A DNA stretch of 64,000 bases from Nitrospinaceae bacterium (GTDB lineage: Bacteria; Nitrospinota; Nitrospinia; Nitrospinales; JACRGP01), in assembly GCA_029261555.1 (NCBI GenBank), contig JAJDBB010000039.1, forward strand, positions 1 through 64,000, written 5' to 3'. The translations under genes were made by a program, and so were the position numbers. The notes under the pieces are model-generated. The model made no database searches, had not been told where the DNA came from, and saw only the letters and a program-made list of their open reading frames with translations. Below are positions 3,600-60,346 of this stretch, in pieces. The stretch's first letter is position 1. The number at the start of each line of letters is the position of its first letter.

Positions 3600-5495
3600 T
3601 CAGTTAAGGGAGGTTTCCTGGGTTTGCCGGTCTCGGTTTGGGCGGGCGAGTTCCGCTAGGAGATTGAAAATATCTTCGCGAGTGGCCTCCTGCGATCTGT
3701 TGCACAGCTCCTCCGCTTGAAACATGAAATGGCCGTCCACCCGCTCCTGAGATTTGATCAACTTAATTTTTTCATGCGGCGTGGGTTCAATTTCTTCGTT
3801 CCCGGCAACGAGTTTCTCCTGCAATTTTTCGCCGGGACGCAGTCCAGTAAACTTTATCGGGACGTCGTCTTCAGAATCGCATCCTGAAAGCAGAATCATC
3901 TTTTTTGCCAGCGCAACGATGTTGACGGGTTGACCCATCTCCAGCAAAAACTTGTCGCCGCCCCGGCCCAACGCCGCCGACTGCAGGATGAGCTGGACCG
4001 CCTCTGAAATCAGCATAAAGTATCGTTCGACGTCGGGGTGGGTGATCGTGACCGGCCCGCCGTTTGCAATCTGTTTTTGAAACAGCGGAACCACGCTTCC
4101 GTGGCTCCCCAATACGTTGCCGAACCGGACTGTGATGAATTGAGTTTCCCCTTCCTCGTTTAAACACTGGATCAGCTTTTCCGCCAGGCATTTGGTCGCC
4201 CCCATAACGCTTGAAGGCTGGACTACTTTGTCTGTGGAAACCAGAACAAATTTCTCCGCGCCGTAGGCCTTGGCCAACTCAGCCACCACGCGGGTGCCGT
4301 GAATATTGTTGTGAATCGCTTCTCCTGGATGATTTTCCATCAAGGGAACGTGTTTGTGCGCGGCGGCGTGGAATACCAGATCCGGACGAAATTTCTGGTA
4401 CAGCGTTTCCATTTTTTCCCGGTCGGTGATGGAACATAAACGAAAACATTTTTCTACACTGGAAAATTCGGAAGCCAGGGAAACTTCCAGATCGTACAGA
4501 TAATTTTCGCACCGGTCCACCATGATCAGGGAGTCCGGTTTGAATTCCACGATCTGCCGGCACAATTCCGATCCGATGGAACCGCCCGCGCCGGTGACCA
4601 ACACTTTCTTCCCGTCCACCAGGTTTTTGGTCAGGGAAAGATCCAACGACACTCGCTCTCGGCCTAAAAGATCGCTGATTTCCAGGTCGCGAATTTTTGA
4701 GATGTGAACCTGTTGCGTGGACGTGTCCAGCACGGAGGCGATGATTTTGGATTTGACGCAGGCGCGCTTGAAAATCGCCGCCAGCTCTCCCAGGTTTTCA
4801 TCGGTGAGCGTGTGCGCGGCCACCAAAACTTCCTTGATCTCCAGAGCGGAAACCAAAGAAGGGATCTGACCGCGATCGCCCAAAACTTTTATTCCGTTTA
4901 AATTATTGTTTAGCTTTTTGGGGTCGTCGTCGATAAAGCCCTTCACCGAATACTGCCCGGCGAAGCGGTTCAGGTAGCGGAGAAGATGAGCTCCCTCGTC
5001 GCCCGCGCCAAAAATAAGAACCGGGATTTTCTGGTTCTGCGAGCCGGTGTGGAATTTATTCGCCCGCTCCCGGAAAATTCTCCAGAGCAGGCGCGACCCG
5101 CCCACCGCCATGATGAGCAAGACCATGTCCATCACAAAAATGGAGCGCGGCATGGACATGGACCGGTTGTAAATAAAAGTGGCGCACAAAATTAAAAACG
5201 ACCCTACGGCGACGGCCTTGATGATTTGAACCAAGTCGTCCAGCGAAGTGTACTTCCAGAATCGCCCGTAGAATTTGAAATAAAAATAAGCCGCGCCCCG
5301 GCAAACGATCACAAAAGGAATCAGGTCGAATAAAAGTTCAAAATAAATATCAGGAATGGTTCCGTCGAACCGGAGAAGAAAGGCGAGGTAAAGCGAGAGG
5401 ATTCCCAGCAAGGAATCGAAAACAAACAGGACGGCTCGGCGGGCGTTGAATTGAAATAAGACTTTCATGAATCCATATGAGGGAAAGTACGCCAA
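3600..5495 (-). CDS. Membrane nucleoside-diphosphate-sugar epimerase/dehydratase (CapD/PglF/WbpM type)
   Basis: N-terminal TM segments, VLIFGAGDEGAHLLR, then VLVTGAGGSIGSELCRQI, FHAAAHKHVPLMENHP, VSTDKVVQPSSVMGATK. Confidence 0.93.
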   Translation of the reverse strand: MAYFPSYGFMKVLFQFNARRAVLFVFDSLLGILSLYLAFLLRFDGTIPDIYFELLFDLIPFVIVCRGAAYFYFKFYGRFWKYTSLDDLVQIIKAVAVGSFLILCATFIYNRSMSMPRSIFVMDMVLLIMAVGGSRLLWRIFRERANKFHTGSQNQKIPVLIFGAGDEGAHLLRYLNRFAGQYSVKGFIDDDPKKLNNNLNGIKVLGDRGQIPSLVSALEIKEVLVAAHTLTDENLGELAAIFKRACVKSKIIASVLDTSTQQVHISKIRDLEISDLLGRERVSLDLSLTKNLVDGKKVLVTGAGGSIGSELCRQIVEFKPDSLIMVDRCENYLYDLEVSLASEFSSVEKCFRLCSITDREKMETLYQKFRPDLVFHAAAHKHVPLMENHPGEAIHNNIHGTRVVAELAKAYGAEKFVLVSTDKVVQPSSVMGATKCLAEKLIQCLNEEGETQFITVRFGNVLGSHGSVVPLFQKQIANGGPVTITHPDVERYFMLISEAVQLILQSAALGRGGDKFLLEMGQPVNIVALAKKMILLSGCDSEDDVPIKFTGLRPGEKLQEKLVAGNEEIEPTPHEKIKLIKSQERVDGHFMFQAEELCNRSQEATREDIFNLLAELARPNRDRQTQETSLN

Positions 5496-5744: not shown

Positions 5745-6326
5745 ATGGGCACATTGGCTATCATCGTATTGGCGTTATTTCTGTTTGCCGCTTTGGGGAT
5801 CGTGATTTACGCCGTCTCCATTTACAACGGTTTGATCTCGCTGAAGGAGAATATCAAAAAATCCTGGGGCAACATCGACGTGATCCTGAAACAGCGCCAT
5901 GACGAATTGCCCAAGCTGATTTCGGTCTGCGAAAGTTACGCCGCGTTTGAAAAAGGCGTTCTGGACAGGGTGATGAAAGCGAGGGAAAATTATTTTCGCG
6001 CCAACACCGTCGCGCAAAAGGCTCAGGCCAGCGGCGATATCAGCGCCGGACTCAAAAGCCTGTTCGCTCTGTCCGAAAATTTTCCGGAACTGAAGGCTAA
6101 CGAAAATTTCATGCAACTGCAAAACCGCATCAGCCACCTGGAAGAATCTCTCGCCGACCGGCGCGAGTTTTATAACGACAGCGTCAACAACTACAACATC
6201 CGCATCCAGCAAATTCCGGACGTGATCGTCGCGAACATTCTTGGCTACCGCCAGGAGGAGATGTTCGAGGTGAGCGAGGAAGAGCGCAAGGACGTGGACG
6301 TCAAAATCAAGCTTCCAAAGTTTTAA
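5745..6326 (+). CDS. LemA family protein
   Basis: N-terminal TM helix followed by YNGLISLKENIKKSWGNIDVILKQRHDELPKLI and NYNIRIQQIPDVIVANILGY, characteristic of LemA; start trimmed from 5682. Confidence 0.9.
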   Translation: MGTLAIIVLALFLFAALGIVIYAVSIYNGLISLKENIKKSWGNIDVILKQRHDELPKLISVCESYAAFEKGVLDRVMKARENYFRANTVAQKAQASGDISAGLKSLFALSENFPELKANENFMQLQNRISHLEESLADRREFYNDSVNNYNIRIQQIPDVIVANILGYRQEEMFEVSEEERKDVDVKIKLPKF

Positions 6327-6347
6327 CGTTTGCCCGTTCCGAAAACT

Positions 6348-7331
6348 ATGGACGCCGCGAACGCCATCAATAATTTTACGATCTATTGCGTGATAGGACT
6401 GGGCGCGGGGATCTACTGGTTCGTCGCCGGTTTCCGCGAGCTGAAACAAAAACGCACGATTCAAGATATCCCCACCAGCAAAATCGCCACCGGCGCGGTT
6501 GGAACGAACGTCGAGATCAAGGGCCAGGTGATCTGCGACGAGGAGAAGGTGATTCCCGCTCCTATCAGCGAAACGCCCAGCGTTTTTTATTCCATCGAAA
6601 TTCAAAAGCTGGTGCGCAACAAAAACTCCAGTTATTGGAAATCCATCGACCGCTTTTATTCCGACAAGGGGTTCTTTGTGGACGACGGTAGCGGGGCCGA
6701 CGCCCTGGTGTACATCGAAGGAGCCACCGTCAAGCGCAAGGGTAAACCGGCGGAGTTCCAACTGGCCTCGAATAATTTCAATACCATGCCGCCCCTGCTT
6801 TCCCAGGCGCTGACCAAAAACGCCGCCAAACTAAAACGCTTCAAATTGAAATCCACCTCTTGGCTGTTTTCCGACAAATACCGGTTTCTCGAATGGTATT
6901 TCAAACCCAGCGATTCGATTTATGTTCTGGGCTTTGCCGAGTCCGGATTAAAAGTTCCCAAACGGCGCAAGCTTAAGTTCAAGACGTTTCTCAAGGCGAA
7001 AAAACTGGTCGCCTCCGATCCGAAATTGAAAAAACGTTTCGACTCAAATAAGGACGGGGTGTTGACTCCCGAGGAACTGGAATGGGGAGCTAAAGTCATC
7101 GGCGAACAACTAGACGCCAAATACGACAAGAAACAAACAAAGGAACTGGTCTCCAAGACCAAAATGATTTTCAAGCACAAGAAACCCCACCCCTTCATTG
7201 TCAGCAATATGCATGAGGAAAATCTGGTCAAATCCATTGCCATGACCTCCACCTTAAAAATGATCGGCGGACCCATCGTCGCCGTTGCCTGCCTCGGTTA
7301 TTTGGTCTTCACGCTCAAAAACTTTTTGTGA
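6348..7331 (+). CDS. Membrane protein with GIDE-like domain plus a single EF-hand-like motif
   Basis: IPTSKIATGAVGTNVEIKGQVICDEEKVIPAPISETPSVFYSIEIQKL...FFVDDGSGADALVYIEGA resembles bacterial GIDE-domain proteins; DSNKDGVLTPEE fits an EF-hand loop; N- and C-terminal TM helices. ORF from 6330, likely ATG at 6348. Confidence 0.6.
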   Translation: MDAANAINNFTIYCVIGLGAGIYWFVAGFRELKQKRTIQDIPTSKIATGAVGTNVEIKGQVICDEEKVIPAPISETPSVFYSIEIQKLVRNKNSSYWKSIDRFYSDKGFFVDDGSGADALVYIEGATVKRKGKPAEFQLASNNFNTMPPLLSQALTKNAAKLKRFKLKSTSWLFSDKYRFLEWYFKPSDSIYVLGFAESGLKVPKRRKLKFKTFLKAKKLVASDPKLKKRFDSNKDGVLTPEELEWGAKVIGEQLDAKYDKKQTKELVSKTKMIFKHKKPHPFIVSNMHEENLVKSIAMTSTLKMIGGPIVAVACLGYLVFTLKNFL

Positions 7332-7494
7332 TACCGCTTTGTTCATAATGCTGGAGCGCCACTCCTTCGTCGTCTAAAAAATGGGAAATGAAATCCTGGT
7401 TATGTTAAATTTAGTGTCCTTGCTTTATCCAACGACCTAGCGTCCCGACGTCGAAGAATAATTCCACTACCTTAATAATCACAAAAAACCACTC

Positions 7495-10002
7495 ATGCAG
7501 GAATACGATTTTAAAAAAATAGAAGCCCGCTGGCAGAAGTACTGGGAGGAGAACAAAACTTTCAAGGTCGAGGAAGAGTCCTCCCGCGAAAAATATTATC
7601 TGCTGGAAATGTTCCCCTACCCATCGGGGAAAATCCACATGGGCCACGTCCGAAATTACTCCATCGGCGACGCCTTGGCGCGCTTCAAAAAAATGAAAGG
7701 CTTCAACGTCCTGCATCCCATCGGCTGGGACGCCTTCGGTATGCCCGCGGAAAACGCCGCCATCCAGAACAAAACGCATCCGGCGGAATGGACCTTCAAC
7801 AACATCCGCGCCATGCGCGAACAGTTTAAAAAACTCGGCTTCAGTTACGACTGGGACCGCGAGATCGCCACCTGCCATCCCGGTTATTATCGCTGGAACC
7901 AATGGTGTTTCCTGAAGTTTTTCGAGAAAGGCCTGGTCTACCAAAAAAACGCGACCGTCAACTGGTGCGACCCCTGCAACACCGTGTTGGCCAACGAGCA
8001 GGTGGTGGACGGCGCCTGCTGGCGGTGCGATTCTCCCGTCGAACAAAAACAACAGCCCGGATGGTTCTTTAAAATCACCGACTACGCCGACCGCCTGCTA
8101 GAGGGTTGCCGGGAGCTTGCCGGCGGCTGGCCGGAGCAGGTGCTCGCCATGCAGACCAACTGGATCGGCAAAAGCCATGGGGCGGAAGTCGATTTCGCCG
8201 TCGAAGGCCGCGACGAAACCATCCGCGTGTTCACCACGCGCCCGGATACGCTCTTCGGCGCCACCTTCATGGTCTTAGCGCCGGAGCATCCGCTGACCCG
8301 TGCGCTCTCGCGCAACGCACCTCAAGAGAGCGCCGTCGACGCGTTCATCGAAAGCGTTCGCGGTCAGGATAAAATCAGCCGTACCAGCGAAGGCGGAGAA
8401 AAACACGGTGTTTTCACCGGCGCTCACGCCGTCAATCCCATGACAGGCAAACCTGTTCCCGTCTGGACCGCCAATTTTGTTTTGATGGATTACGGCACCG
8501 GGGCCATCATGTCCGTTCCCGCGCACGACCAGCGCGACTTGGATTTTGCCCGCAAATACCAACTGCCCGTCAAGGTCGTCATTCAACCGCCCAGCCGCGA
8601 GCTGGACGCGGACAGCATGACCGAAGCCTACAAGGACGACGGCGCGATGACGGGGTCTGGCCAATTCGACGGTTTGTTCGGCGAAGAGGGACGCGAAAAA
8701 GTTTGCGCCTGGCTGGAAGAGAAGGGGATTGGCAAAGCGACGGTGAACTACCGCCTGCGCGACTGGGGCGTTTCCAGGCAACGGTACTGGGGAACCCCGG
8801 TTCCGATCATTTTTTGCGACGCCTGCGGAACCGTTCCCGTTCCCGAAGACCAACTCCCGGTGGAGCTTCCGCTGGACGCGCAATTGGGCGCGAAAGGACA
8901 GTCGCCGTTAAAAACCATGTCCGCATTCGTCGACGTCGATTGTCCGAAATGCGGAAAATCCGCGCGCAGGGAAACCGATACGCTGGACACTTTTGTTTGT
9001 TCGTCGTGGTACTTTCATCGCTACACTTCGCCTCGTTACGAGGACGGACCGTTCAGCAAAGAGAACGCGCGTTACTGGACGCCGGTCGACCAATACATCG
9101 GCGGCGTCGAGCACGCCATCCTTCACCTCCTTTACTCGCGATTTTTCCACAAGGCGTTTCACGACCTGGGAATGATCGACGCCCCGGAACCCTTCGCCAA
9201 CCTGCTCACGCAGGGTATGGTGATTAAAGACGGCGCGAAGATGTCCAAGTCAAAGGGCAACGTTGTGGACCCGGACCGAATTATGGACCGCTACGGAGCG
9301 GATACGGCGCGCCTGTTCATCCTGTTCGCCGCCCCGCCGGTCAAGGATCTGGAGTGGAACGACAGCGGGGTCGAGGGTTGTTTCCGTTTTCTCAAGCGGA
9401 CATGGCGGATCGTGCATGAGCTCATGGGTCCGGCGCGAGGAGCGGCTGAGTCGCTGGACCCCGCCGCCGATCTGCCAAAAGCCTTTCGCGAATTGCGGAG
9501 GCAGACGCAGATCGTCATCAAGCGCGTGACGGAGGACGTTGAAACGCGCATGCAATTCAACACCGCCATCGCCGCCTGCATGGAATTCGTCAACCACCTT
9601 TACGATTTCAAGGAAGCGCAAGGAGAGTCGGGATTGGAAAACGCCGACGCCGCGCAACGCGCCGCCGTGAAGGAAGCGCTCGACTCGCTTGTCCTCTTGC
9701 TTTCCGTGTTCGCCCCGCACATTGCGGAGGAATTATGGGCGGCCTTAGGCGCCGAGAGGACCGTTGCCCAACAGGACTGGCCGCGTTTTCACGAAGAACT
9801 GATCCGTACCGAGGAAATATTGATCGTCGTTCAGGTCAATGGTAAAGTGAGACAGAAGATCGAAGTCGACGCGGAGATTGGCGAGGACGACTTGAAAGCC
9901 CGCGTCCAGGACGATCCAAAAATCCGCGAATGGATCGAGGGGAAAACGATTAGGAAGGTCGTGGTGGTGCCTAAAAAACTGGTCAACATCGTCGCCGTTT
10001 GA
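7495..10002 (+). CDS. leuS: Leucyl-tRNA synthetase
   Basis: FPYPSGKIHMGHVRNYSIGD (HIGH-like) and KMSKSKGNVVDPD (KMSKS); full-length class I aaRS architecture. Confidence 0.98.
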   Translation: MQEYDFKKIEARWQKYWEENKTFKVEEESSREKYYLLEMFPYPSGKIHMGHVRNYSIGDALARFKKMKGFNVLHPIGWDAFGMPAENAAIQNKTHPAEWTFNNIRAMREQFKKLGFSYDWDREIATCHPGYYRWNQWCFLKFFEKGLVYQKNATVNWCDPCNTVLANEQVVDGACWRCDSPVEQKQQPGWFFKITDYADRLLEGCRELAGGWPEQVLAMQTNWIGKSHGAEVDFAVEGRDETIRVFTTRPDTLFGATFMVLAPEHPLTRALSRNAPQESAVDAFIESVRGQDKISRTSEGGEKHGVFTGAHAVNPMTGKPVPVWTANFVLMDYGTGAIMSVPAHDQRDLDFARKYQLPVKVVIQPPSRELDADSMTEAYKDDGAMTGSGQFDGLFGEEGREKVCAWLEEKGIGKATVNYRLRDWGVSRQRYWGTPVPIIFCDACGTVPVPEDQLPVELPLDAQLGAKGQSPLKTMSAFVDVDCPKCGKSARRETDTLDTFVCSSWYFHRYTSPRYEDGPFSKENARYWTPVDQYIGGVEHAILHLLYSRFFHKAFHDLGMIDAPEPFANLLTQGMVIKDGAKMSKSKGNVVDPDRIMDRYGADTARLFILFAAPPVKDLEWNDSGVEGCFRFLKRTWRIVHELMGPARGAAESLDPAADLPKAFRELRRQTQIVIKRVTEDVETRMQFNTAIAACMEFVNHLYDFKEAQGESGLENADAAQRAAVKEALDSLVLLLSVFAPHIAEELWAALGAERTVAQQDWPRFHEELIRTEEILIVVQVNGKVRQKIEVDAEIGEDDLKARVQDDPKIREWIEGKTIRKVVVVPKKLVNIVAV

Positions 10003-29250: not shown

Positions 29251-31041
29251 ATGAAACCAGTTCAGATATTTGCGCGAGCGCTTTTGACGTTTCTACTTAC
29301 ATTTTTGCTGGCCGGCGTTGCGATTGCCCAAACGGCGCCTTCCCTGTTCATGAATCCCTCGGTTCAAACGGACGCTTCGGGCGTCCATGGCCCTGAAGTG
29401 ACGCGTTCGCGGCCCGTGGATATCAATTTTAATCTGTTGACGCAAGCGGACCCGGCGTCCGGCGCCGTGCCTCTGAACCTGAACCTCTTCGACGACGCGT
29501 CGCTCACAACTCAGATCGATGGGATGAAATCCAAGCCGTCCGGCGCCCGCATTTACACCGGCTCTGTTGAGGGCGGGGGTCCGTTCAGCCAGGCGACTAT
29601 CGTGGTGAACGGCGACACCGTGGCGGGAGATATTTTTGACGGTCACAATCTTTATCAAATCCGCAGTCGAGGGAACGGTTTGCACGAGGTTCGCGAAATC
29701 GACTCGTCACAATTTCCACCGGACAGCGATCCCATCCCGGTTTACTCCCCCCCGACGCAAGGAGACGCACCGGTCGCTAACGCGGACGACGGTTCGGTCA
29801 TCGACGTGCTGGTGGTCTACAGCGACGACGCAAGAGTTCAGGCGGGCGGCACGACCGCCATGGAAACCGAGATCGATCTGGCCGAAACATTAACCAATAC
29901 TTCTTATACCAACAGCGGCGTCGACCATACGATCAACATAGTTGGCAAAACGGAAGTGGCTTATAACGAAACGGGATTCTCCTTCACCCAGGCGTTGAAC
30001 GACGTGACGGGAACTAGCGCCACGCAGGATTTAAGCGCGGTGCGAACGCAACGCGATACGCTGGGCGCCGACCTGGTGGTGTTTCTCGTGAAGGGAGACG
30101 GGAGTTTTTGCGGGCTGGCCTGGTTGATGACCACCGTTTCTTCCACCTTCGAGACCAACGGTTTTTCCGTCACGGCGGAAGGGAGTTGCGCTACGACCAA
30201 CTTCACTTTCGGGCACGAAATCGGGCATAACAGCGGAGCGCGGCACGACCGGACCGCCGACCCGACGGACAACTCTCCGTTTACTTTCAATCATGGGCAC
30301 ATCCTTTCCGGCAACAGCTTTCGCACGATCATGGCGTTGTCGACCGGGACGCGCATTCAGTTCTGGTCCAATCCGGCCGTCAGTTCCTCCGGCATTCCAA
30401 CCGGTATCGCCGAGGGCAACGCCCTTGCCGCCGACAATCAAAAAACGCTGGATCAAACCGCGCTTACGATATCCAATTTTCGCGCCTCCGTTTCAAGCGT
30501 TTCCAATACGGCGATACCGAGCAACCTGTTTACCCGATCCAAAAAACATCGGGTGGTTTCCCCATATTGGCAGGCGGATTTAGGCATCTACACTTTCATC
30601 GCCATTTCCCATCCATCGCTTTCCGGGATGAACTCCCAGATCGGCGTTTCCGTCAATCCGGTGTTGGACGACGTTTCCGCCATCTACGGAACCCCGGCGG
30701 AATTCACCATCCTTTCGGGAGAAACCAAGAGGTTATTCATCACGGGAGCGAATAATACCGTCGCCTCTCTTACCGGCATCACGGGAGCCAGCCTCATCAC
30801 CGGCACCGATACTATCGGTAACCAGGGGCAGTTGATTGTCAACCCGGTGGCCAGCAACCCGGAGAAGTTTTTGGGAATCGCAAGTTCCGCCAGTCGGGGG
30901 TTTCCGGATATCACCGCGCTTTCCTTCTGGGGAGCGGTGGTCATCCCCACAAGCTCCACGGGGTTCGCCATGGAATTTATCGGCGATATGCAGGATTCGC
31001 GCGCGTTTCAACAAGCGGGAAATTTTAGCGGCGTGAATTGA
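29251..31041 (+). CDS. Secreted reprolysin-like zinc metalloprotease with C-terminal SPYWQ/FAMEFIGD domain
   Basis: Signal peptide; FGHEIGHNSGARHD (HExxHxxGxxHD) zinc motif; C-terminal ~165 aa matches the proteins at 56406 and 57105. Start trimmed from 29170 to ATG 29251. Confidence 0.88.
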   Translation: MKPVQIFARALLTFLLTFLLAGVAIAQTAPSLFMNPSVQTDASGVHGPEVTRSRPVDINFNLLTQADPASGAVPLNLNLFDDASLTTQIDGMKSKPSGARIYTGSVEGGGPFSQATIVVNGDTVAGDIFDGHNLYQIRSRGNGLHEVREIDSSQFPPDSDPIPVYSPPTQGDAPVANADDGSVIDVLVVYSDDARVQAGGTTAMETEIDLAETLTNTSYTNSGVDHTINIVGKTEVAYNETGFSFTQALNDVTGTSATQDLSAVRTQRDTLGADLVVFLVKGDGSFCGLAWLMTTVSSTFETNGFSVTAEGSCATTNFTFGHEIGHNSGARHDRTADPTDNSPFTFNHGHILSGNSFRTIMALSTGTRIQFWSNPAVSSSGIPTGIAEGNALAADNQKTLDQTALTISNFRASVSSVSNTAIPSNLFTRSKKHRVVSPYWQADLGIYTFIAISHPSLSGMNSQIGVSVNPVLDDVSAIYGTPAEFTILSGETKRLFITGANNTVASLTGITGASLITGTDTIGNQGQLIVNPVASNPEKFLGIASSASRGFPDITALSFWGAVVIPTSSTGFAMEFIGDMQDSRAFQQAGNFSGVN

Positions 31042-31094: not shown

Positions 31095-31889
31095 ATGGCG
31101 GGACCACAATCGGGAGTTTTTGACCTGTCCCATAAACACATTACGCTTTTAGCGCTGGAGGTTCCGGAAGCGGGCCTGAGCGCGGGGAGCGTGAGCAAGG
31201 CGGCGGCGGTGATCCCCGCATTGACCGCCGGATTGGGAAAGGATCGCCCGGAATGGAATCCGGTTTCTTTCGTCGCGTTCCGCCCCTTGTTCTGGAGCTT
31301 TGCCTGGCAGGGCGGACAGCCCAGCGGCTTGCACCCGGCGCGTAAGTTATTCGGCGCCGTCGAAGCGGCGGAGCTGGAAGGCGATATGTTGATCTGCCTG
31401 GCCTCGGAATCCCCGGAATGCAACGACGCTTTGGAACAACTTGTTCTTGAGAAACTAGGCCGGGCGGTAGACATTCTGGAAAATTTTAAATTTCCTCCCT
31501 CCCCGGACGCCCGTTCATTAAGCGAACCCACCCGCAATACCCTGATTGGCAAGGATGACCCGGAATTTGAAAACGGAGCGCTGGCGGTCACGCGACATTT
31601 TTTCCGGCCAGGAGCGGCGTCTTCCACGCCGGTTTTTTCGAACCCCGAACAATTGGGCGAGGGTTATTGTTTCTCCTGCGAAAATGACGAGGATTGTTTC
31701 CAAATCGTAATGAGCAAGGACGCAGTGAGTTTTTCAGGCTTGGCCGATCCGGAGGACGTCGAGGGCGTGGAAATAAAGTCTAAAGGATATTATTTTATTC
31801 CATCGCTTGATGTTTTACTGGGTTTGCGACTGGGCGGCATCCGCATGGGCACCCTGTCCCCCACCCACCCTTATAAAGATCCAGCGTGA
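31095..31889 (+). CDS. DyP-type peroxidase-like protein (degenerate; apparently lacks catalytic motifs)
   Basis: N-term QSGVFDLSHKHITLLAL, central GDMLICLASESPECND...LSEPTRNTLIGKDDPEFENGALAVTRHF and C-term KGYYFIPSLDVLLGL line up with recalled YfeX/DyP segments, but GxxDG is replaced by LSEPTRN. Confidence 0.5.
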   Translation: MAGPQSGVFDLSHKHITLLALEVPEAGLSAGSVSKAAAVIPALTAGLGKDRPEWNPVSFVAFRPLFWSFAWQGGQPSGLHPARKLFGAVEAAELEGDMLICLASESPECNDALEQLVLEKLGRAVDILENFKFPPSPDARSLSEPTRNTLIGKDDPEFENGALAVTRHFFRPGAASSTPVFSNPEQLGEGYCFSCENDEDCFQIVMSKDAVSFSGLADPEDVEGVEIKSKGYYFIPSLDVLLGLRLGGIRMGTLSPTHPYKDPA

Positions 31890-42289: not shown

Positions 42290-42949
42290 ATGAATCTGTT
42301 TCGCGGATTGATTCTGGTTTTGGGGCTTTGCATTCTGCTCCCCGCACCTGCCGCTTGGGCGGAAGAAAAGGAGTCGTCCAAAACCGAAAAGAAGTTGCGG
42401 CTCAACAAAAAAAACCACTTTAAAAGATTTCAAAAAGGCTACAAGGATTTCGGAATCCAAGGCGGTTGGGGCGCTGCCGTCAACATCCCTCCGGATAATG
42501 ACCGCACGGATTGGGAGTTTTTATATCTGGCTCCCAACTTGAAATGGAACCTCACCGGTCCTATCGGCAAATCCTTTTATCGCGGTAGTCTGTACTGGTA
42601 CCAGGAAGTTGGAGGATGGGTCGCCACCAATCCGGAAGACGCCTTTCTGATTTCCTATTCCCCGGTGATGGCGGAGTACAAATTTTTATGGCCCAAAGTG
42701 GACTGGGCGCCTTATATATTCGGCGGCGGCGGTTTTGCGGGAACCAACATCAACGAAAAGAGCCAAAGAGAAATCGCCACCAACTTTGAGTTCCTCCTGC
42801 ACGCCGGAGTCGGTCTGGAATTTTACAAAACCGAGAAAGGCGCCTTTTCGGTTAATTACCGATTTTTCCATATTTCCAACGCAGGGATCGAAGCGCCCAA
42901 TATTGGAGTCAACGCCAACCTTTTCACCATCGGTTATTCCTTCAAATAA
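42290..42949 (+). CDS. Outer-membrane lipid A deacylase, PagL-like (acyloxyacyl hydrolase)
   Basis: Signal peptide, beta-barrel-like, C-terminal VNYRFFHISNAGIEAPNIGVNAN resembles PagL catalytic HxSNAG segment. Confidence 0.75.
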   Translation: MNLFRGLILVLGLCILLPAPAAWAEEKESSKTEKKLRLNKKNHFKRFQKGYKDFGIQGGWGAAVNIPPDNDRTDWEFLYLAPNLKWNLTGPIGKSFYRGSLYWYQEVGGWVATNPEDAFLISYSPVMAEYKFLWPKVDWAPYIFGGGGFAGTNINEKSQREIATNFEFLLHAGVGLEFYKTEKGAFSVNYRFFHISNAGIEAPNIGVNANLFTIGYSFK

Positions 42950-43081: not shown

Positions 43082-45844
43082 ATGGCTCAAAAGAGTACGA
43101 CAACGACCCCGCGTAAAAACGGAGGCGCTTCTAATATGCTGGATCGCCTGTTTTCCCAACTGGAGCGTTTCGCCTACAATCATTCCATCGGAGTCGTTGC
43201 GGTCGCCGTCGGTTTGGCCGCGATATGCGTCTGGTTTACGGCGCAACAACTGACTTTCAACACCAGCCGCCGGGACCTCATCTCCAAAAACCTCGATTAC
43301 GAAAAACACTACCAGCGCTATAAAGACGCCTTCGAGAGTTTCAGCGGCGTCACCGTGGTGGTCGAAGGCGTCCAGCCGGAAGCCATGAAAAATTTTACCG
43401 AAAGCCTCGTCTTGAGGCTTCGGCAAGACGCTTCTCTCTACTCCGAAATTCTTTACAAGATTGACGTTGATTATTTCCGCAACAAGGGTCTGTTGTACAT
43501 GGACCTGCCGGAAATCAAACAACTCGTGGAGAAACTGGAATCGCACCGCAATTTCCTCGAAGACCTCAACGCCGCTCCCGGCTTGAATCAATTGTTGCGC
43601 GGGATCAATTCAAAAATCAGCGCCGGGATGGTCGACTCCATGTTATCCGACTTTCTGGGAACCGGTTCCGGCAGTGAGGAGGGCGAGGAAGACGACGACG
43701 CGGCGGACCTGACGCTCCTGATTTCTATCCTGAAACAGATGAACGCTTTTGTCGACGGCGGAACCGATTACCGTTCTCCCTGGCGCTCCTTCCTCGCCAA
43801 TCAGGAGGGAAAACAATTGGAGGAGGAGGGCTACCTCGTTTCCGACGACGGGTCGTTGATGTTCATTGTCATGAACCCAGACGACGACGCGCAGGATTTC
43901 GCCGGCGCCAGAAAGGCCATTGAATCCTTACGGAGCCTTATCAAGGAAGTCAAAAAAGATCATCCCGGCGTTCAGGTAGGAGTGACTGGCGGCGACGTGA
44001 TCGCCTCCGACGAAATGGTCACCACCCAGGCGGACGTCATCGACGCTTCACTGATTGCCCTGGTCGGCGTTACCTTACTCTTTATCTTCGCCTACGGCGG
44101 CGTGGTCAAACCTCTGCTAGCCGTGTTCAGTCTGCTGGTGGCCCTTTGCTGGTCGCTTGGATACACCACCTTCGCCGTCGGTCATCTCAATATCCTGTCC
44201 GTGGTCTTCACCACCATCCTCATCGGGCTGGGAATCGATTTCGGCATCCATGTGTTGGAACGCTTTCGCGAAGAGCGGGCGGCGGGCAAGGAACTGCTCC
44301 CCGCTCTGGAAAGAACCTTGCAGTGCACCGGGCGCGGCAACCTCGCGGGCGCCATCACCACAGCCATCGCCTTCGGCTCCATGATGTTCACCGATTTCAT
44401 CGGCATGGCCGAGTTGGGCCAAATCGCCGCCGGGGGAATTTTATTATGTCTCGTCGCCATGGTCCTCCTGCTCCCAGCCCTCATCACGCTGGAAGAAAAA
44501 TGGCGGGGCGACGGACGCAGACCCTCTCTCGCTTCCGCCGCATCGGGAGACGCGAGACGACTGGAAAAAATCTTCGAGCATTATCCCTGGATCATCGGAA
44601 TCTGCCTGTTTGCCATCGCCGCTTCCGCGCTGGCCTTTATCAACCTGAGCTTCGACTACAATTTGCTGAACCTGCAGGCCCATGGGTCCGAGGCCGTCAA
44701 GTACGAATTGAAAATCCTGGAAAACGACAAGCGCTCCACCTGGTACGCCGCGCTCATCGCCGATTCCCTGGAAGACGCCCGGCGTAAACAAAAAATCGCC
44801 GAGTCGCTTCCCACCGTCGGCAAGGTAGAAAGCATTCTCTCTGTCATCCCAAAAAACCAGGATGAAAAAATAGAAACCATTAAAACTCTGGCGCCGGTTC
44901 TGAACTCCATGGACGTGGAACCGGTCAACGAACCGGTCTCCATCCGTTCCTTAACCGCCACCCTGAAAAAGATCCGTTTCAAACTTCAGGAGCGTAAGGA
45001 GGGTGAAAACGACTCCGTTTCACTCGCGGGAAATCTGGCGCAAGGTCTGGTACAAAAACTGAAAACTACGGACCCCGACCAGGCCAAAGAACGCCTGAAA
45101 ACCTTATCCGGAAAATTATTCGCCGACTATCGAGACAAACTCGCCGACCTGAAAGCGGGCGGGAACCCGACCCCCGTGCTGATCGAGGAATTGCCGGACA
45201 CGCTCCAGCGACGCTTCCTGGGAAAAAACGGAAAATTTCTTATCCAGGCCTATCCCAATATTAATATTTGGGAGCGCGAGGCGATGGAATCCTTCCTGAG
45301 CGACGTCCGCAAAATTGATCCTATGGCGACGGGCAACGCCGTGCACATGTACGAGACCTCGCAGTTGATGAAAATGGGTTACCTGCGCGGCGGACTCTAT
45401 GCTATGGCCGCCATCTTATTCTTTCTCATCGTGTCGTTCAAAAACCTGAGGACCACCTTGTTCATTATGTTGCCGACGGTGGTGGGAGGGGTCTGGACGG
45501 TGGGGATCATGCACGTCCTGAACGTGCAGTTCAACTTGGCCAATCTGGTGATCCTGCCGCTCATCATAGGTATTGGCGTGGTCAACGGCGTTCACATCGT
45601 GCACCGCTACCGCGAGGAAAACGAAAAAGGCGTCTCCATTTTGTCGCGCAGCACCGGACAGGCCGTGGTTCTAAGCTCGCTGACCACGATGATTGGTTTC
45701 GGCAGTTTGATGGTGGCGGACCATCAGGGCATTTACAGTCTAGGTCTGGTGCTTACCCTCGGCGTGGGCAACGCCCTCATCGCTTCCGTCACCCTGCTCC
45801 CCGCGTTGTTAAAAATGTGCGCCGTCAACGGATGGAAGGTGTAG
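43082..45844 (+). CDS. MMPL/RND superfamily exporter (HpnN-like)
   Basis: Two sets of TM clusters; GLGIDFGIHVLERFREE and GIGVVNGVHIVHRYREE motifs. Confidence 0.88.
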   Translation: MAQKSTTTTPRKNGGASNMLDRLFSQLERFAYNHSIGVVAVAVGLAAICVWFTAQQLTFNTSRRDLISKNLDYEKHYQRYKDAFESFSGVTVVVEGVQPEAMKNFTESLVLRLRQDASLYSEILYKIDVDYFRNKGLLYMDLPEIKQLVEKLESHRNFLEDLNAAPGLNQLLRGINSKISAGMVDSMLSDFLGTGSGSEEGEEDDDAADLTLLISILKQMNAFVDGGTDYRSPWRSFLANQEGKQLEEEGYLVSDDGSLMFIVMNPDDDAQDFAGARKAIESLRSLIKEVKKDHPGVQVGVTGGDVIASDEMVTTQADVIDASLIALVGVTLLFIFAYGGVVKPLLAVFSLLVALCWSLGYTTFAVGHLNILSVVFTTILIGLGIDFGIHVLERFREERAAGKELLPALERTLQCTGRGNLAGAITTAIAFGSMMFTDFIGMAELGQIAAGGILLCLVAMVLLLPALITLEEKWRGDGRRPSLASAASGDARRLEKIFEHYPWIIGICLFAIAASALAFINLSFDYNLLNLQAHGSEAVKYELKILENDKRSTWYAALIADSLEDARRKQKIAESLPTVGKVESILSVIPKNQDEKIETIKTLAPVLNSMDVEPVNEPVSIRSLTATLKKIRFKLQERKEGENDSVSLAGNLAQGLVQKLKTTDPDQAKERLKTLSGKLFADYRDKLADLKAGGNPTPVLIEELPDTLQRRFLGKNGKFLIQAYPNINIWEREAMESFLSDVRKIDPMATGNAVHMYETSQLMKMGYLRGGLYAMAAILFFLIVSFKNLRTTLFIMLPTVVGGVWTVGIMHVLNVQFNLANLVILPLIIGIGVVNGVHIVHRYREENEKGVSILSRSTGQAVVLSSLTTMIGFGSLMVADHQGIYSLGLVLTLGVGNALIASVTLLPALLKMCAVNGWKV

Positions 45845-54110: not shown

Positions 54111-54325
54111 AGAGGGGAGGCCAATAGGCAAAACTTTTTGGCCCATGGATTAATTTAATGCATTGTCGTCGTCGCTAATTTATAATGAGTGGCTGAGCGT
54201 GGGGTTCCAAACCCTGACAGGGTAGTCAAAAAGATTCTTACTTTTTGAATCGGCCCTGGAACGCACGAAATCTCTTATTAATCGCGGCTCCTCTTCCCCA
54301 GAGCGGGCCTCAACGTAATGGACTC

Positions 54326-55333
54326 ATGAGCATTCCCGTTCAACAGGCCGTCTCTGTCGGCTGGTACGTTTTCAAACAAAAACTCAAACGACGCAAGCGC
54401 TATCCGCTTGTGTTGATGCTGGAGCCTTTATTCCGTTGTAACGTCGAGTGCATCGGGTGCGGCAAGATCCAGAAGCCAAACGATATTTTGAAACAGCATC
54501 TAACGGTGGAGCAATGCCTGAACGCGGCGGAGGAATGCGGAGCGCCCGTGGTTTCCGTGGCCGGCGGAGAACCGTTGATCCATCCCGAGATCGTCGAGAT
54601 CGTGCAGGGCCTACTGGATCAAAAACGCTACGTCTACCTGTGCACCAACGCCTTACTGTTGCCGAAATTTTTTGACAAGTTGCCGAAGCATCCGCTCCTC
54701 ACCTTGTCCATTCACCTGGACGGGTTGGAAAAAGAGCACGACCATATCATGCAAAAGGAAGGGTCTTTCAACGCGGTGGTCGAGGCGATCAAGGAAGCGA
54801 AGGAAAAGGGGTTTCGCGTGTCCACCAACACAACTTTCTTCGACGGGACCACGGCGAAGAGCGCGACGGAGTTTCTGGATTTTCTGCGTCCGTTGAAACT
54901 GGATGGGATGACGGTCGCGGCGGGATTTCAATACCACGCGGCGCCGGACCAGGCGCATTTTTTCGGCAGGAAAAAGACCTTCGAATTTTTTAACGACGTT
55001 CTGAAGCAAAACAAAAACGGCCGGTGGGATTTCAGCCATTCGCCGTTCTATATGGATTTTCTAAAGGGCAACCGGGATTACGATTGTTCCCCCTGGGGCA
55101 ACCCTAATTATTCCATCCTCGGCTGGCAAAGGCCTTGCTACCTTCTGGACGAGGGTTACGCGGAAACGTTCGACGATCTGATGGAAAAAACGGATTGGGA
55201 TAACTACGGCCACCGCAACAATCCTAAATGCGCCGACTGCACGGCGCACTGCGGTTACGAGGCCACGGCGGTGGAGGACTCCACGGCCAACCTTAAAAAT
55301 ATGATCGAATCCGCCAAAGGCGTTTTTATGTAG
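54326..55333 (+). CDS. hpnH: Adenosyl-hopene transferase HpnH (radical SAM)
   Basis: MSIPVQQAVSVGWYVFKQKL, RYPLVLMLEPLFRCNVECIGCGKIQ (CxxxCxxC), APVVSVAGGEPLIHPEI, FQYHAAPDQAHFFGR; start trimmed from 54245. Confidence 0.92.
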   Translation: MSIPVQQAVSVGWYVFKQKLKRRKRYPLVLMLEPLFRCNVECIGCGKIQKPNDILKQHLTVEQCLNAAEECGAPVVSVAGGEPLIHPEIVEIVQGLLDQKRYVYLCTNALLLPKFFDKLPKHPLLTLSIHLDGLEKEHDHIMQKEGSFNAVVEAIKEAKEKGFRVSTNTTFFDGTTAKSATEFLDFLRPLKLDGMTVAAGFQYHAAPDQAHFFGRKKTFEFFNDVLKQNKNGRWDFSHSPFYMDFLKGNRDYDCSPWGNPNYSILGWQRPCYLLDEGYAETFDDLMEKTDWDNYGHRNNPKCADCTAHCGYEATAVEDSTANLKNMIESAKGVFM

Positions 55334-55480: not shown

Positions 55481-56332
55481 TCAGGAAGCCGTTATTTTTT
55501 CCAGCAGGCTTTTATATTTTTCGTTTTCCGGGGCCAGTTTCAGGGCCTTTTGGATCAACTCTCCCGCCTTTTCATTTTCCCCTTTGCCCGCCATAACATC
55601 CGCCCATTGGTAGTAGGCTTCCAGATAATAAGGATTAATAGCCAGGGAATTCTGAAACGACGCGGCGGCCTGATCGGGTTTATTCTGGTCCTTGTAGGTC
55701 ATGCCCAGGTTGAAGTGAGTCAACATACCTTTGGGATTGGCGTCTAGAGAAGCTTGTAAAATCTTTTCCGCTTCCTCGAGTTTTCCAGTCAGGCGAAATA
55801 CGTCCCCAAGGTTATTGAGGTAGGTGGAGTTGCGTTTTTCCTGCTGAATGGCCTTGTTGTAATATTTGGCGGCCTGGTCGTAATTCTTGGAGTCTTTGAA
55901 CAGGTTACCCAGGTTATTATAGGCCTTGGAGTCGTTATCGTCTTCCTTTGTGGCGATCGCGGTTTCCCAGCTCTTTCCAGCGTCGTCCTTGTTGCCCTCC
56001 ATATAATAAGTCATCCCCACGTTGACAAAGGCTTGAACATAGTCGGGTTTAACTGCGAGAGCCTTATTGAAACTATCGCGCGCCTCTGGGTATTTCTTTA
56101 ATCCAAACAGTACCAGGCCTTTTTTGTCGTAGGCCATAAAGTTATTTGGATTGAACTTGACCGCCAGATCGAACTCGTCAAGAGAGTTTTGATAAAGCGA
56201 ATACTGGGCGAATTCGATTCCAAGTTTGTAATGGGAATCGGACTGTGCCGTATCGACCTTGGGTTTTTCGGGACTTTGGGAGCAGGAGACCAAGGAGGCA
56301 AGAATTAACAGATAAGAAAAGATTTGTTTCAT
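55481..56332 (-). CDS. TPR-repeat lipoprotein
   Basis: Lipobox LASLVSCSQ; multiple TPR units (ARDSFNKALAVKPDYVQAFVNVGMTYY etc.). Confidence 0.9.
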   Translation of the reverse strand: MKQIFSYLLILASLVSCSQSPEKPKVDTAQSDSHYKLGIEFAQYSLYQNSLDEFDLAVKFNPNNFMAYDKKGLVLFGLKKYPEARDSFNKALAVKPDYVQAFVNVGMTYYMEGNKDDAGKSWETAIATKEDDNDSKAYNNLGNLFKDSKNYDQAAKYYNKAIQQEKRNSTYLNNLGDVFRLTGKLEEAEKILQASLDANPKGMLTHFNLGMTYKDQNKPDQAAASFQNSLAINPYYLEAYYQWADVMAGKGENEKAGELIQKALKLAPENEKYKSLLEKITAS

Positions 56333-56352: not shown

Positions 56353-56385
56353 AAAAAAAAACGGGGCCAACCGAAGTTGGCCCCG
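56353..56385 (-). terminator. Strong intrinsic terminator downstream of the 56406-57050 gene
   Basis: Minus strand reads CGGGGCCAAC-TTCG-GTTGGCCCCG followed by T9: perfect 10-bp stem with a cUUCGg tetraloop and U tract. Confidence 0.95.
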
Positions 56386-56405
56386 CGAAAATATAAAAAC
56401 TAAAC

Positions 56406-57050
56406 TTAGTTGAGACCTCTAGCGGTACCAGAATTAATGCCGTCAGTCGCACCATATTGTGTCGTGTTACTCAGGATTGCGGAATCAGCCGCGTCTCCAA
56501 TGAACTCCATGGCAAACCCGGAAGCGGTAGACAGGATAACAACCGCGCCCCAGAAATTCAACTGGTTGAGGTTGTTACGCAGAGTCGTCGACCCGGGAAA
56601 GTTAGCGCCAAGAGGCACCGAAGGATTTGCTCCGGTCGTAGAAGAAGCCCGGATAAAGCCAAAAGCATTCGTTCCACTGGTGGTAGCAATAAAACGCAAG
56701 GTGCTGCTAGCTGCGCCAGGAACTCCTGGGGAAATGGTGGTGTTGGTTGCGGAGATAAAAACCCGATGGGTTTCGCCGGCGCTAATTGTGAAAGTTACGC
56801 TGGGATTAGCCGAACCTGCGTCACTTGTTGCGCCAACCGCCGCAAGGGTCAAGCCAATTTTGGAAGAAGCGGTATTCAGCGAGGGATGGGAAATACCAAT
56901 AAAGGTATAAATCCCACCGCTGGTATCAGCCTGGTAATAAGGCGAAATTACCGTGCTATCCCGAGAGGTGTCTCGATCAGCATAAGCATTTTGAGCAACG
57001 ACCATAAGCCCAAAAAGACCTATAATCATTAAAGTAGAAAATCTTTTCAT
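56406..57050 (-). CDS. Small secreted protein, SPYWQ/FAMEFIGD domain family
   Basis: Signal peptide MKRFSTLMIIGLFGLMVVAQNAYA; ISPYYQ...GGIYTFIGISHPSL...FWGAVVILSTASGFAMEFIGD...RGLN; AGGAG RBS upstream of Met at 57050. Confidence 0.9.
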   Translation of the reverse strand: MKRFSTLMIIGLFGLMVVAQNAYADRDTSRDSTVISPYYQADTSGGIYTFIGISHPSLNTASSKIGLTLAAVGATSDAGSANPSVTFTISAGETHRVFISATNTTISPGVPGAASSTLRFIATTSGTNAFGFIRASSTTGANPSVPLGANFPGSTTLRNNLNQLNFWGAVVILSTASGFAMEFIGDAADSAILSNTTQYGATDGINSGTARGLN

Positions 57051-57104
57051 CAGTCGTTCTCCTTCAGATATTCGAAAAATTTTTTCCAATTCGATTTGTC
57101 AAAC

Positions 57105-57707
57105 TTAGTTGATGCCCGAAAAATTACCAGTGGGATCAAACGTACGCGAATCTGCCTGGTCGCCAACAAATTCCATGGCAAAACCGGTGGCGGTGTTCAG
57201 AACCACGATGGCGCCCCAATAGCTCAAGGCGGTGATATCGTACAATTCACAATGGAGGGATCTTTGCGTATTAGGCTCGCAATTATTCAACCCAGCATTC
57301 GTGGCAACTGCAGTAAAGCGCAGGTTACCAACCGTAGAATTGGTCGTGTTGGTGATCAGGAACGTGGCTTCAGAGTTCGTCGTCGTGTTTACGGCAAACT
57401 GCGTCCCAAAAGACGTGGACGGAACGATGAACAATTTTTGAGAAGCGTTGTTGCTAACCGTAAACGTGGTGCTGGTGCTTACTGCGCCACTAGAGTCCAA
57501 AGCTTGCATGTTGACGCCAATCCGGGTGGACATGCCGGAGAGCGAAGGATGACTGACAACTACGAAGGTATAAACTCCACCCTCAGACTGCCAATAAGGA
57601 CTAACAACTGATTTACCATTAGATATGGCGGAAGCGTTCCCAGCAAAGAGCAGAGAGGCCGCTATTACGGTAATGGCTAAAAACCGTTTGAAAATATTTT
57701 TTTTCAT
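57105..57707 (-). CDS. Small secreted protein, SPYWQ/FAMEFIGD domain family
   Basis: Signal peptide MKKNIFKRFLAITVIAASLLFAGNASA; VVSPYWQSEGGVYTFVVVSHPSLSGM...YWGAIVVLNTATGFAMEFVGDQADSRTFDPTGNFSGIN; AAAGGAG RBS. Confidence 0.9.
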   Translation of the reverse strand: MKKNIFKRFLAITVIAASLLFAGNASAISNGKSVVSPYWQSEGGVYTFVVVSHPSLSGMSTRIGVNMQALDSSGAVSTSTTFTVSNNASQKLFIVPSTSFGTQFAVNTTTNSEATFLITNTTNSTVGNLRFTAVATNAGLNNCEPNTQRSLHCELYDITALSYWGAIVVLNTATGFAMEFVGDQADSRTFDPTGNFSGIN

Positions 57708-58596
57708 TTACTTTTCTCCTTTGAATTCTTCTTCAAATATATTCCAAGGATCCTATTGAGATCACATTTACTTCGTTTTTAAAGCCACTCTACAAATACC
57801 GGCTACCCACCTCCCCTCAAAGGCCAAAACTTCTTTTTATTGTTTGAGAATAGTTAATTTTACCACTTATGTTAAAAGCCGTGTTTAAGCAAGCTTTACC
57901 ATACATTTTAATCATTTAAGACAATACATTATATTCAATAGTCAAACCATGTCAAGAAAAAAACCTAATAATAACCCCAAAAATAGGGTCATTATATGGT
58001 CGTTTACCAAAGGATTAGGCAGCCAATTGGAAAAATTGATCAAGATTTCGCGGTAAGTTTAAAGGTTATATTTACGAGCACTGTGTGTGTTTTGGCGGAT
58101 CCCTTTGTATTCTTCGGGGTTCTTGGCAAAGATTTCCTAGGGGAATTTCATGGTGAAAAGCATGTTCCGTTATTATAGCGCAAAAAACTAATATATTTGA
58201 TCATTTTTCTTTTAGGCCAATCCACATTCTAATGAGAGAGGCTCGAATCGGCCTTACGATAGGTTAATTGTCTACCTAGCGGAACCGGAAGCGAATTTCT
58301 TTAGTTAATTTGAATAGATAAGCGGGGTGAGTTTTCCGGGTCCTATTCCGTTTCCGGAACAAAATTACCCTGTTGGTTGGCGCATTTGACTCTCTTCCTG
58401 TTTGATTCTGTTTATTCCGTAAATTTTTCTCCTTCGCTCTCGCGGGGAAAGCTGCCAGTTTGTTGCGGAGCGTTCAGACGGTTGAGTATTTTAGCGAAAT
58501 TTGTTATAGTTTTAGTAAATTTTATTCATTTTATCCATAATTAAGAAGTCTGGAATCTCAATCGAACGTTAATTCAATTTTCAAGGACGCCGCCAA

Positions 58597-59394
58597 ATGC
58601 GCTACTCGGTACAAATATTAAAGGTTGTGGTAAAAAGCCTTCTTCCCCGTCTCTTAGCGCCGCTTATTCTGTCGGTCCCCGTGGCATTGTCGGGTTGCGC
58701 CTCCGACGGTGATTCGCTGGAAAATGCTCTCAAAGCCGAGGCCGCGTACAACGAGGCATTGCAATATCAATCCGTAAACAAAACTGCCGCCGTCGAGGAA
58801 AAAATCCAGGAGGCTATCAAACTTGATCCCCTGGAACCCAGGTATCATCTGAATCTCGGTAAGTTCTATTTTTCGGAAAACAAACTGGATCTCGCCGAAG
58901 GGCAGTTTTTACAGACCCTCCAGTTGGATGACGCCTCTCACGAACCTTACCGCCAACTGGGTCGGCTGTACCTGCAAAAAAAGGACTACTCAACCGCCCT
59001 GAATTTTTTGGGGCAAAGCCTGACCAAAAAACAACTCAAAAATCCTCAGCAAATTCACAATTGGATGGCGCTTTGCTATTACAAGACCGACGATTTCTCC
59101 AACGCTGAAAAGTCCTGGCTCAAAGCCCTTAACTTTCGCGAGAACGAATACATTCGCTTGAATCTGGCCCTGGCCTATCGCGATAACGAGCGTTTCGACG
59201 AGGCGGAGAAGACTCTTAAAAAAGCGGTGATCTACAAACCAGGTTTTGCCCCGGCTCATTATCAACTGGGCTTGCTTTACCTTAAAAAGCAGGATTTTCC
59301 CAAAGCCAAAAAACACTTCAACCGCGTCGTCAGTCTCCAACCCAGCAGTCAGGAAGCTCAGGATTCCCGCAAGTTTCTGGAATTGATGCGGTAA
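58597..59394 (+). CDS. TPR lipoprotein, PilF/PilW-like
   Basis: Lipobox ALSGCASDGDS; TPR units; first gene of the type IV pilus operon. Confidence 0.8.
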   Translation: MRYSVQILKVVVKSLLPRLLAPLILSVPVALSGCASDGDSLENALKAEAAYNEALQYQSVNKTAAVEEKIQEAIKLDPLEPRYHLNLGKFYFSENKLDLAEGQFLQTLQLDDASHEPYRQLGRLYLQKKDYSTALNFLGQSLTKKQLKNPQQIHNWMALCYYKTDDFSNAEKSWLKALNFRENEYIRLNLALAYRDNERFDEAEKTLKKAVIYKPGFAPAHYQLGLLYLKKQDFPKAKKHFNRVVSLQPSSQEAQDSRKFLELMR

Positions 59395-59398
59395 TAAA

Positions 59399-60346
59399 AT
59401 GGACCCGGCAGAAAGCTTTGGACCGTACCTAAAAAATGAACGGGAACTGCGCGGAATCACGCTCGAAGAAATTGCCGCCGCCACCAAAATCCATATTAAA
59501 TATTTGCAGGCCCTGGAAGACGAACGTTACGCCGATCTTCCTGGAGAAGTTTTTGTCAAAGGTTTTCTGCGTTCCTTCGCCAAAGCCATTGGAGCCGACG
59601 GCGACGATATCGTCGCCGCATACGACCAGTTGGCGGACAAGAAATTTCCCGAACGCCCGGTTCCGTCCGCTTTCTCCGAAAACGAAAAAAACCAGTCAAG
59701 TCTCTCGGGCGTTATAATTTGGGGTCTTCTGGTCGTCCTGGCTGCAGCCGGTTATTTTTATTTTAAACCCTTCGCTTCAAAAACGCGCCTTCCTGAAATA
59801 CGGGAGAACCCACAAGCCATACCGGAAGAGCCAAAATTTATTCCCCACGCTCCCTATTCGCCCACGACGGATTTTTCTCCCATTACAATACCGATTCTTC
59901 CACCCGTCCCCGATGCGGGCAGAGAAAATGGAGCCCACGACGGGACCGAAAAAAGCATTCCTAAAAATGAAAAACATGGTATAATTCAACCACCTATGCC
60001 AGTTTCATCGGGTGAAACCGCTGGTGAGGAGGGGCTGGTTTCCGAGGCTCAAACCTCCTCATTGAAAGAGCCGGGAAATGGAGAAGCGATCCGGGAAAAT
60101 CTGGTTTTGGTGGTTGGCGCAAAAACCGCCTCCTGGTTTCATTTGCAGGTGGATAGTTCGGCGGAATACGATTTCATACTTCCCATGGGGACGGAAAAAA
60201 CGTTTCATGGGAAGAAAGAATTGAACCTTACAATAGGAAACCGGGAGGGGGTCCGTTTAACGTTAAACGGCAAATCTCTCGTACCGCCCTCTGGGCGGGA
60301 CAATGTCGTCCGTAACTTTATTATCACCCACAAACTGATTGAGTGA
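59399..60346 (+). CDS. RodZ-like protein (N-terminal HTH, TM helix, C-terminal DUF4115-like domain)
   Basis: LKNERELRGITLEEIAAATKIHIKYLQALEDERYADLPGEVFVKGFLRSFAKAIG; TM VIIWGLLVVLAAAGYFYF; C-term SWFHLQVDSSAEYDFILPMGTEKTF. Confidence 0.88.
   Translation: MDPAESFGPYLKNERELRGITLEEIAAATKIHIKYLQALEDERYADLPGEVFVKGFLRSFAKAIGADGDDIVAAYDQLADKKFPERPVPSAFSENEKNQSSLSGVIIWGLLVVLAAAGYFYFKPFASKTRLPEIRENPQAIPEEPKFIPHAPYSPTTDFSPITIPILPPVPDAGRENGAHDGTEKSIPKNEKHGIIQPPMPVSSGETAGEEGLVSEAQTSSLKEPGNGEAIRENLVLVVGAKTASWFHLQVDSSAEYDFILPMGTEKTFHGKKELNLTIGNREGVRLTLNGKSLVPPSGRDNVVRNFIITHKLIE

Follow-up and report, generated by a model that had tools for sequence, protein, structure and literature searches.

A C-terminal domain of a secreted metalloprotease and of two stand-alone proteins looks like a lineage-specific surface tag of Nitrospinota

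The C-terminal part of a secreted metalloprotease encoded in a 64-kb stretch of DNA from the marine bacterial phylum Nitrospinota (the whole of which is referred to below as the window) is homologous along its entire length to two small proteins of the same window that consist of a signal peptide and this domain alone. The shared region, of approximately 165 residues, represents a new Nitrospinota-specific domain family with a probable role of a known type, C-terminal sorting or anchoring, and it looks like a lineage-specific tag that anchors proteins on the cell surface. The arrangement is also new, combining apparently abundant stand-alone copies and a TPR lipoprotein partner with no known outer-membrane sorting machinery. 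The features concerned are as follows:

29251–31041, forward strand: secreted M12B/reprolysin-like metalloprotease of 596 residues (Pfam PF13583), whose homologues keep HExxH and the third histidine
30538–31038, forward strand: C-terminal domain of the protease (residues 430–596), a predicted beta-sandwich to about 30984 followed by a disordered, conserved tail, MQDSRAFQQAGNFSGVN
55481–56332, reverse strand: TPR-repeat lipoprotein with the lipobox LVSC, third gene of a conserved A-B-TPR cassette
56361–56386, reverse strand: strong intrinsic terminator with an 11-bp stem and 8 T, separating B from the TPR gene
56406–57053, reverse strand: stand-alone copy B, signal peptide plus domain alone, with the tail end ARGLN; member of a separate ancient paralogue clade
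57105–57707, reverse strand: stand-alone copy A, signal peptide plus domain alone, 200 residues, with a good Shine-Dalgarno sequence (AAGGAGAAAAGTAAATG)
57928–57955, reverse strand: sigma-70 promoter that matches the consensus perfectly (TTGACA-16-TATAAT, 12/12), located some 220 nt upstream of A

The protease reading frame starts with an ATG at 29251 and encodes a signal-peptide-like N-terminus, an N-terminal region, a catalytic part at approximately residues 181–410, and then the C-terminal domain; its product contains FGHEIGHNSGARHD. The N-terminal part matches Pfam Reprolysin_4 (PF13583) with an E value of 1.6e-16 and 61 bits against a cut-off of 22, and the zinc motif HExxHxxGxxH reads HEIGHNSGARHD; this combination of an above-threshold match and an intact motif identifies an M12B/reprolysin-like metzincin, in line with the preliminary description, which had reported the domain as fused to such a protease. 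HExxH and the third histidine are invariant among the homologues, and in many from family f2 the glycine of the motif is replaced by alanine or serine while all three histidines are kept. The catalytic part is also homologous to the metzincins Mep72 of Pseudomonas aeruginosa and CpaA, and Mep72, which is linked to biofilms, likewise carries C-terminal modules (PMC4334185). However, the protease scores only 103 and 64 bits against the respective cut-offs of 645 and 750 (the former for the Mep72 equivalog NF052434 of NCBIfam), and the Mep72 modules resemble carbohydrate-binding modules and are not the same as the Nitrospinota domain. Immediately downstream of the protease lies a 264-residue reading frame (31095–31889) without a Pfam match.

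Residues 430–596 of the protease align end to end with A (41% identity, E = 5e-36) and over the whole length with B (39% identity, E = 2e-26), and A aligns with B at 34% identity (E = 2e-28). These values are far above what short chance motifs would give. They uphold the original observation that the last ~165 residues match the two stand-alone secreted proteins, and the start proposed for the domain (30541) was approximately correct, given that the alignment begins at 30538; the ending GNFSG[IV]N is indeed common to the protease and A. In a tree of the domain body, B proteins form one clade (100/99) and every fusion domain falls on the A side, so that a fused enzyme bears the equivalent of A. 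Within family f2, the protease-borne domains are sister to the A proteins.

Searching the whole source assembly, a metagenome-assembled genome of 3.05 Mb and 86% completeness, for further fusions and paralogues brought the number of copies to nine. Six of these lie beyond the window: one is cut at a contig edge, and five are fusions, to two DUF7948/SBBP beta-propeller proteins, another SBBP protein, a Calx-beta protein, and an S8 subtilase. One relative, apparently Nitrospina sp. MSP, has 46–48 copies in reading frames of up to 5370 residues. A species-level scan, with one genome apiece for 85,488 species, returned 74 loci, all of them in Nitrospinota except for three on seemingly mis-binned contigs. 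We considered horizontal spread to Gammaproteobacteria, Alphaproteobacteria, and Marinimicrobia for these three (L047, L048, and L091), and rejected it: the matches of each genome are found on one small contig alone, and these contigs with their Nitrospinota-type copies are probably mis-binned. The domain was detected in 40 of the 78 genomes of the phylum, which belong to families f1–f4 of one order and, in a single case, to another family; the domain does not extend beyond this order and a nearby family.

In the loci from the species-level scan and the window together, the domain is C-terminal in 111 of 112 copies, a few of which are truncated by contig ends. The sole exception (L072, 4827–9350, again from Nitrospina sp. 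MSP) has the domain near the N-terminus, at residues 58–219, with Calx-beta, carboxypeptidase-regulatory, and RHS repeats after it. The partners are diverse and include M12B and S8 proteases, GSDH, SBBP/DUF7948, NHL, and FG-GAP propellers, Calx-beta, BACON, and putative Ig repeats. Two copies are interrupted in frame and are either pseudogenes or assembly errors: a stand-alone copy with a TAG (G018:C10:58915-59403) and a protease fusion with a TGA in the matched frame (G014:C10:42487-42975). The earlier proposal, that occurrence of the domain on its own and at the end of a secreted protease points to a shared device for targeting, anchoring, or co-assembly, receives good support from the near-strict C-terminal position and the many unrelated partners, as well as by conservation of the stand-alone A-B pair across an order, A adjoining B in most domain-bearing genomes. 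Among the 19 domain-bearing genomes with a completeness of at least 90%, nine (G007, G020, G022, G024, G033, G036, G038, G050, and G061) contain stand-alone copies only, which indicates a function for the domain itself, beyond that of an export tag.

Structure prediction of the protease-borne domain with AlphaFold2, based on 99 aligned sequences, was confident (pLDDT 87.5, pTM 0.83) and gave a beta-sandwich of nine strands (residues 9–147), with a tail (residues 154–170) mostly below a pLDDT of 50. B was modeled with the same strand order at lower, moderate confidence (pLDDT 64). Despite its predicted disorder, the tail is conserved: D153, D156, and S157 are each present in 95–98 copies, G168 in 97 of 98, and the final asparagine in 85 of 98, for a consensus end of SG-[VIL]-N-COOH. 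None of the Pfam and NCBIfam families matched by the protease, A, and B covers the domain, no family was meaningfully matched when 99 members were scanned against Pfam one by one, a profile search of PDB sequences gave no credible relative, and no paper in the body of literature searched describes the domain. Its resemblance to the TM1070/ASRT-type beta-sandwich (PDB 1nc7) is weak, with a target-normalised TM-score of 0.57 and a Foldseek probability of 0.90–0.95; at an E value of 0.06–0.13 and with no meaningful Pfam match, homology is not demonstrated. TM1070 is a member of the ASRT family.

These properties invite comparison with the C-terminal domains (CTDs) of type IX secretion cargo (TIGR04183/Por_Secre_tail and type B) in Bacteroidota. 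The domain could be a strict sorting signal of this kind: a dedicated outer-membrane translocon would read it together with the tail, export the protein, and perhaps remove the domain, A and B being cargo or signaling copies. Position at the C-terminus of many unrelated secreted proteins, as in type IX cargo, is what we observed (111/112), and the conserved carboxy-terminal tail fits as well. Type IX CTDs are likewise C-terminal beta-sandwiches (PMC4804311), borne by unrelated Sec-exported proteins, lineage-restricted, and present in dozens per genome in some species. Yet the type IX translocon SprA was absent: SprA_N was found in none of 12 domain-bearing genomes, a meaningful result given that an identical search detects it in 20 of the 21 genomes from a control phylum (that of G080), and type IX secretion was rejected on this count. 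Moreover, searches of Pfam and NCBIfam to E ≤ 1 matched the protease, A, and B to no CTD family (TIGR04183, PF18962, or type B), nor do the 99 members match one in Pfam; the domain is longer, at ~165 residues; and it differs in its disordered conserved tail and in having two stand-alone forms encoded in a conserved operon. No candidate translocon was found beside the domain genes, and 9 of the 19 good genomes lack any fused cargo. We consider a strict sorting signal rather unlikely. Of the markers of type II secretion, PF05134 gave weak matches only, none of them in the source genome, and PF03934 was uninformative because it also matches Gram-positive controls.

The PEP-CTERM, GlyGly-CTERM, and MYXO-CTERM tags have three parts, among them a transmembrane helix and a basic end. 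The Nitrospinota domain shares with them a short conserved C-terminal signature on many unrelated secreted proteins, but it is a folded domain with a hydrophilic tail (e.g., MQDSRAFSSANFSGVN) in which neither a hydrophobic helix nor a basic cluster was found.

A different possibility is that the domain is a carbohydrate-binding module (CBM) by which secreted proteins are held on polysaccharide of the cell itself, with A and B acting as small lectins. The best structural neighbors, weak as they are, are agarase (GH50) structures (best E = 3e-3, TM 0.32), with CBMs further down the list (E > 0.1), and the biofilm-associated metzincin Mep72 bears C-terminal CBMs (PMC4334185). However, no PDB fold matched the domain at E ≤ 1e-3 (TM 0.3–0.4) and no CBM family was matched in Pfam; furthermore, confinement to the very C-terminus, together with a conserved but disordered carboxy tail, is not typical of CBMs. 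A carbohydrate-binding role of this kind seems distinctly improbable to us.

The protease is the most regular enzyme partner of the domain, since the two are fused in 27 of 29 protease loci and the protease lies beside the A-B pair in several f2 (Nitrospina) genomes. One of the two remaining loci is cut at a contig edge and the other (G063) lacks the domain. Of the 78 genomes, 21 contain the protease subfamily, and 20 of these 21 are domain-bearing. This near-constant fusion, the adjacency to A-B, and the near-identity of stand-alone and protease tails within some genomes could mean that the domain serves the protease specifically, as an inhibitor, chaperone, or substrate-recognition element, with its other occurrences secondary. 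As a general explanation this is largely refuted and we hold it to be very improbable, because 20 of the 40 domain-bearing genomes lack the protease subfamily, many other partner types are fused to the domain, and the protease-borne domains do not form a single clade (AU test, p = 0.0003). A related suggestion, that the protease processes a matrix built of the stand-alone copies, is compatible with the same fusion and adjacency; an exclusive role of this type is opposed by the protease being one among many partners and by its absence from half of the domain-bearing genomes.

We also considered, and rejected, co-evolution of the A and protease tails. Tail identity is 0.81 within a genome, compared to 0.65 and 0.60 for orthologues across genomes, but this signal is confounded by phylogeny and the domain body behaves likewise; within f2 alone, the excess is small (0.80 vs. 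0.75; p = 0.04). At one locus (L097), A (4432–5058, forward strand) and the protease (5757–7787, reverse strand) are convergent and their last 20 codons are identical base for base, with only 53% identity between the domain bodies. This points to gene conversion or to selection acting on an inverted repeat.

The stand-alone genes form a conserved cassette with the TPR lipoprotein gene. The promoter upstream of A is the only perfect sigma-70 consensus in the 64-kb window, where 0.02 would be expected, and equivalent matches occur upstream of A elsewhere (perfect in L095 and L115, 11/12 in L110); an Rfam search of the A leader returned no known RNA element. A strong terminator is found at the equivalent place between B and the TPR gene in all 12 loci checked, most of them with a variant of the GGGGCCAAC stem. 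The TPR lipoprotein is approximately 47–55% identical across the order. It is present in 31 of the 40 domain-bearing genomes compared to 3 of the 38 others (Fisher's p = 1.7e-10, a value that ignores shared ancestry) and, among good genomes, in 17 of 19 compared to 1 of 12 (the p value again ignoring phylogeny). Its gene lies beside A or the A-B pair in 24 of these 31 genomes, the one from the other family among them, and is apart from A/B in genus g9. Three genomes contain the TPR gene with no domain detected, two of which are incomplete. Such an arrangement, with two structural-type genes behind a strong promoter and the gene for a membrane-anchored protein beyond a terminator, would be expected of abundant subunits and a scarce anchor or assembly factor.

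Other genes of the neighborhood may be recorded here. A PilF-like TPR lipoprotein gene and a rodZ gene (HTH_25 and RodZ_C) at 58597–60346 are divergent from the A-B operon and neighbor the A-B pair in many relatives. A Radical SAM protein with DUF3463 (54245–55333), similar to HpnH of hopanoid biosynthesis, is encoded near the cassette in several relatives as well. Further away, at 42290–42949, a gene for a PagL-like lipid A deacylase, an outer-membrane modification enzyme, lies upstream of an MMPL transporter gene (43082–45844).

What the analysis establishes is homology, distribution, and gene order; surface location and docking belong to the model that we propose. In it, A and B serve as abundant subunits at the cell surface, with the TPR lipoprotein acting as anchor or assembly receptor for them, and fused enzymes attach by way of their A-like domain; we regard the chances of this model being correct as about even. 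In this model, A and B would be made in quantity from the one strong promoter, exported via Sec, as their signal-peptide-like N-termini suggest, and moved across the outer membrane to assemble at the surface into a coat, fibre, or matrix. The TPR lipoprotein, made at a lower level behind the terminator, would anchor or nucleate A and B at the outer membrane and might do so through contact with the free tail at the C-terminus of the domain. Other Sec-exported proteins, here the M12B metalloprotease, would join the structure through their terminal copy of an A-type domain, and enzymes and beta-propellers would thereby be displayed at the cell surface.

TPR proteins are capable of reading free C-terminal peptides, as Pex5p does with PTS1 (PMC3060121). 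The position of a TPR gene next to genes with a conserved, carboxylate-ended tail suggests that a comparable recognition may operate here. An asparagine ladder in the TPR protein (position 6) was discarded as evidence of peptide binding, being common to TPRs generally. The most specific version of the model, a dedicated Nitrospinota display system in which an outer-membrane TPR lipoprotein reads the SG[VI]N-COOH tail in a PEX5-like manner and gathers A, B, and up to ~50 different enzymes and propellers on the cell surface without any known outer-membrane sorting system, is in our judgement unlikely.

The domain provides a marker for the surface proteome of Nitrospinota, which by this measure would comprise up to 46–48 proteins in one genome, and A, B, and the TPR lipoprotein can be named as a three-gene core for testing. 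It would be an example, from beyond the Bacteroidota, of a domain for C-terminal sorting or docking that operates independently of the type IX machinery, and an unusual one in that the same domain also occurs alone, as an apparently highly expressed pair.
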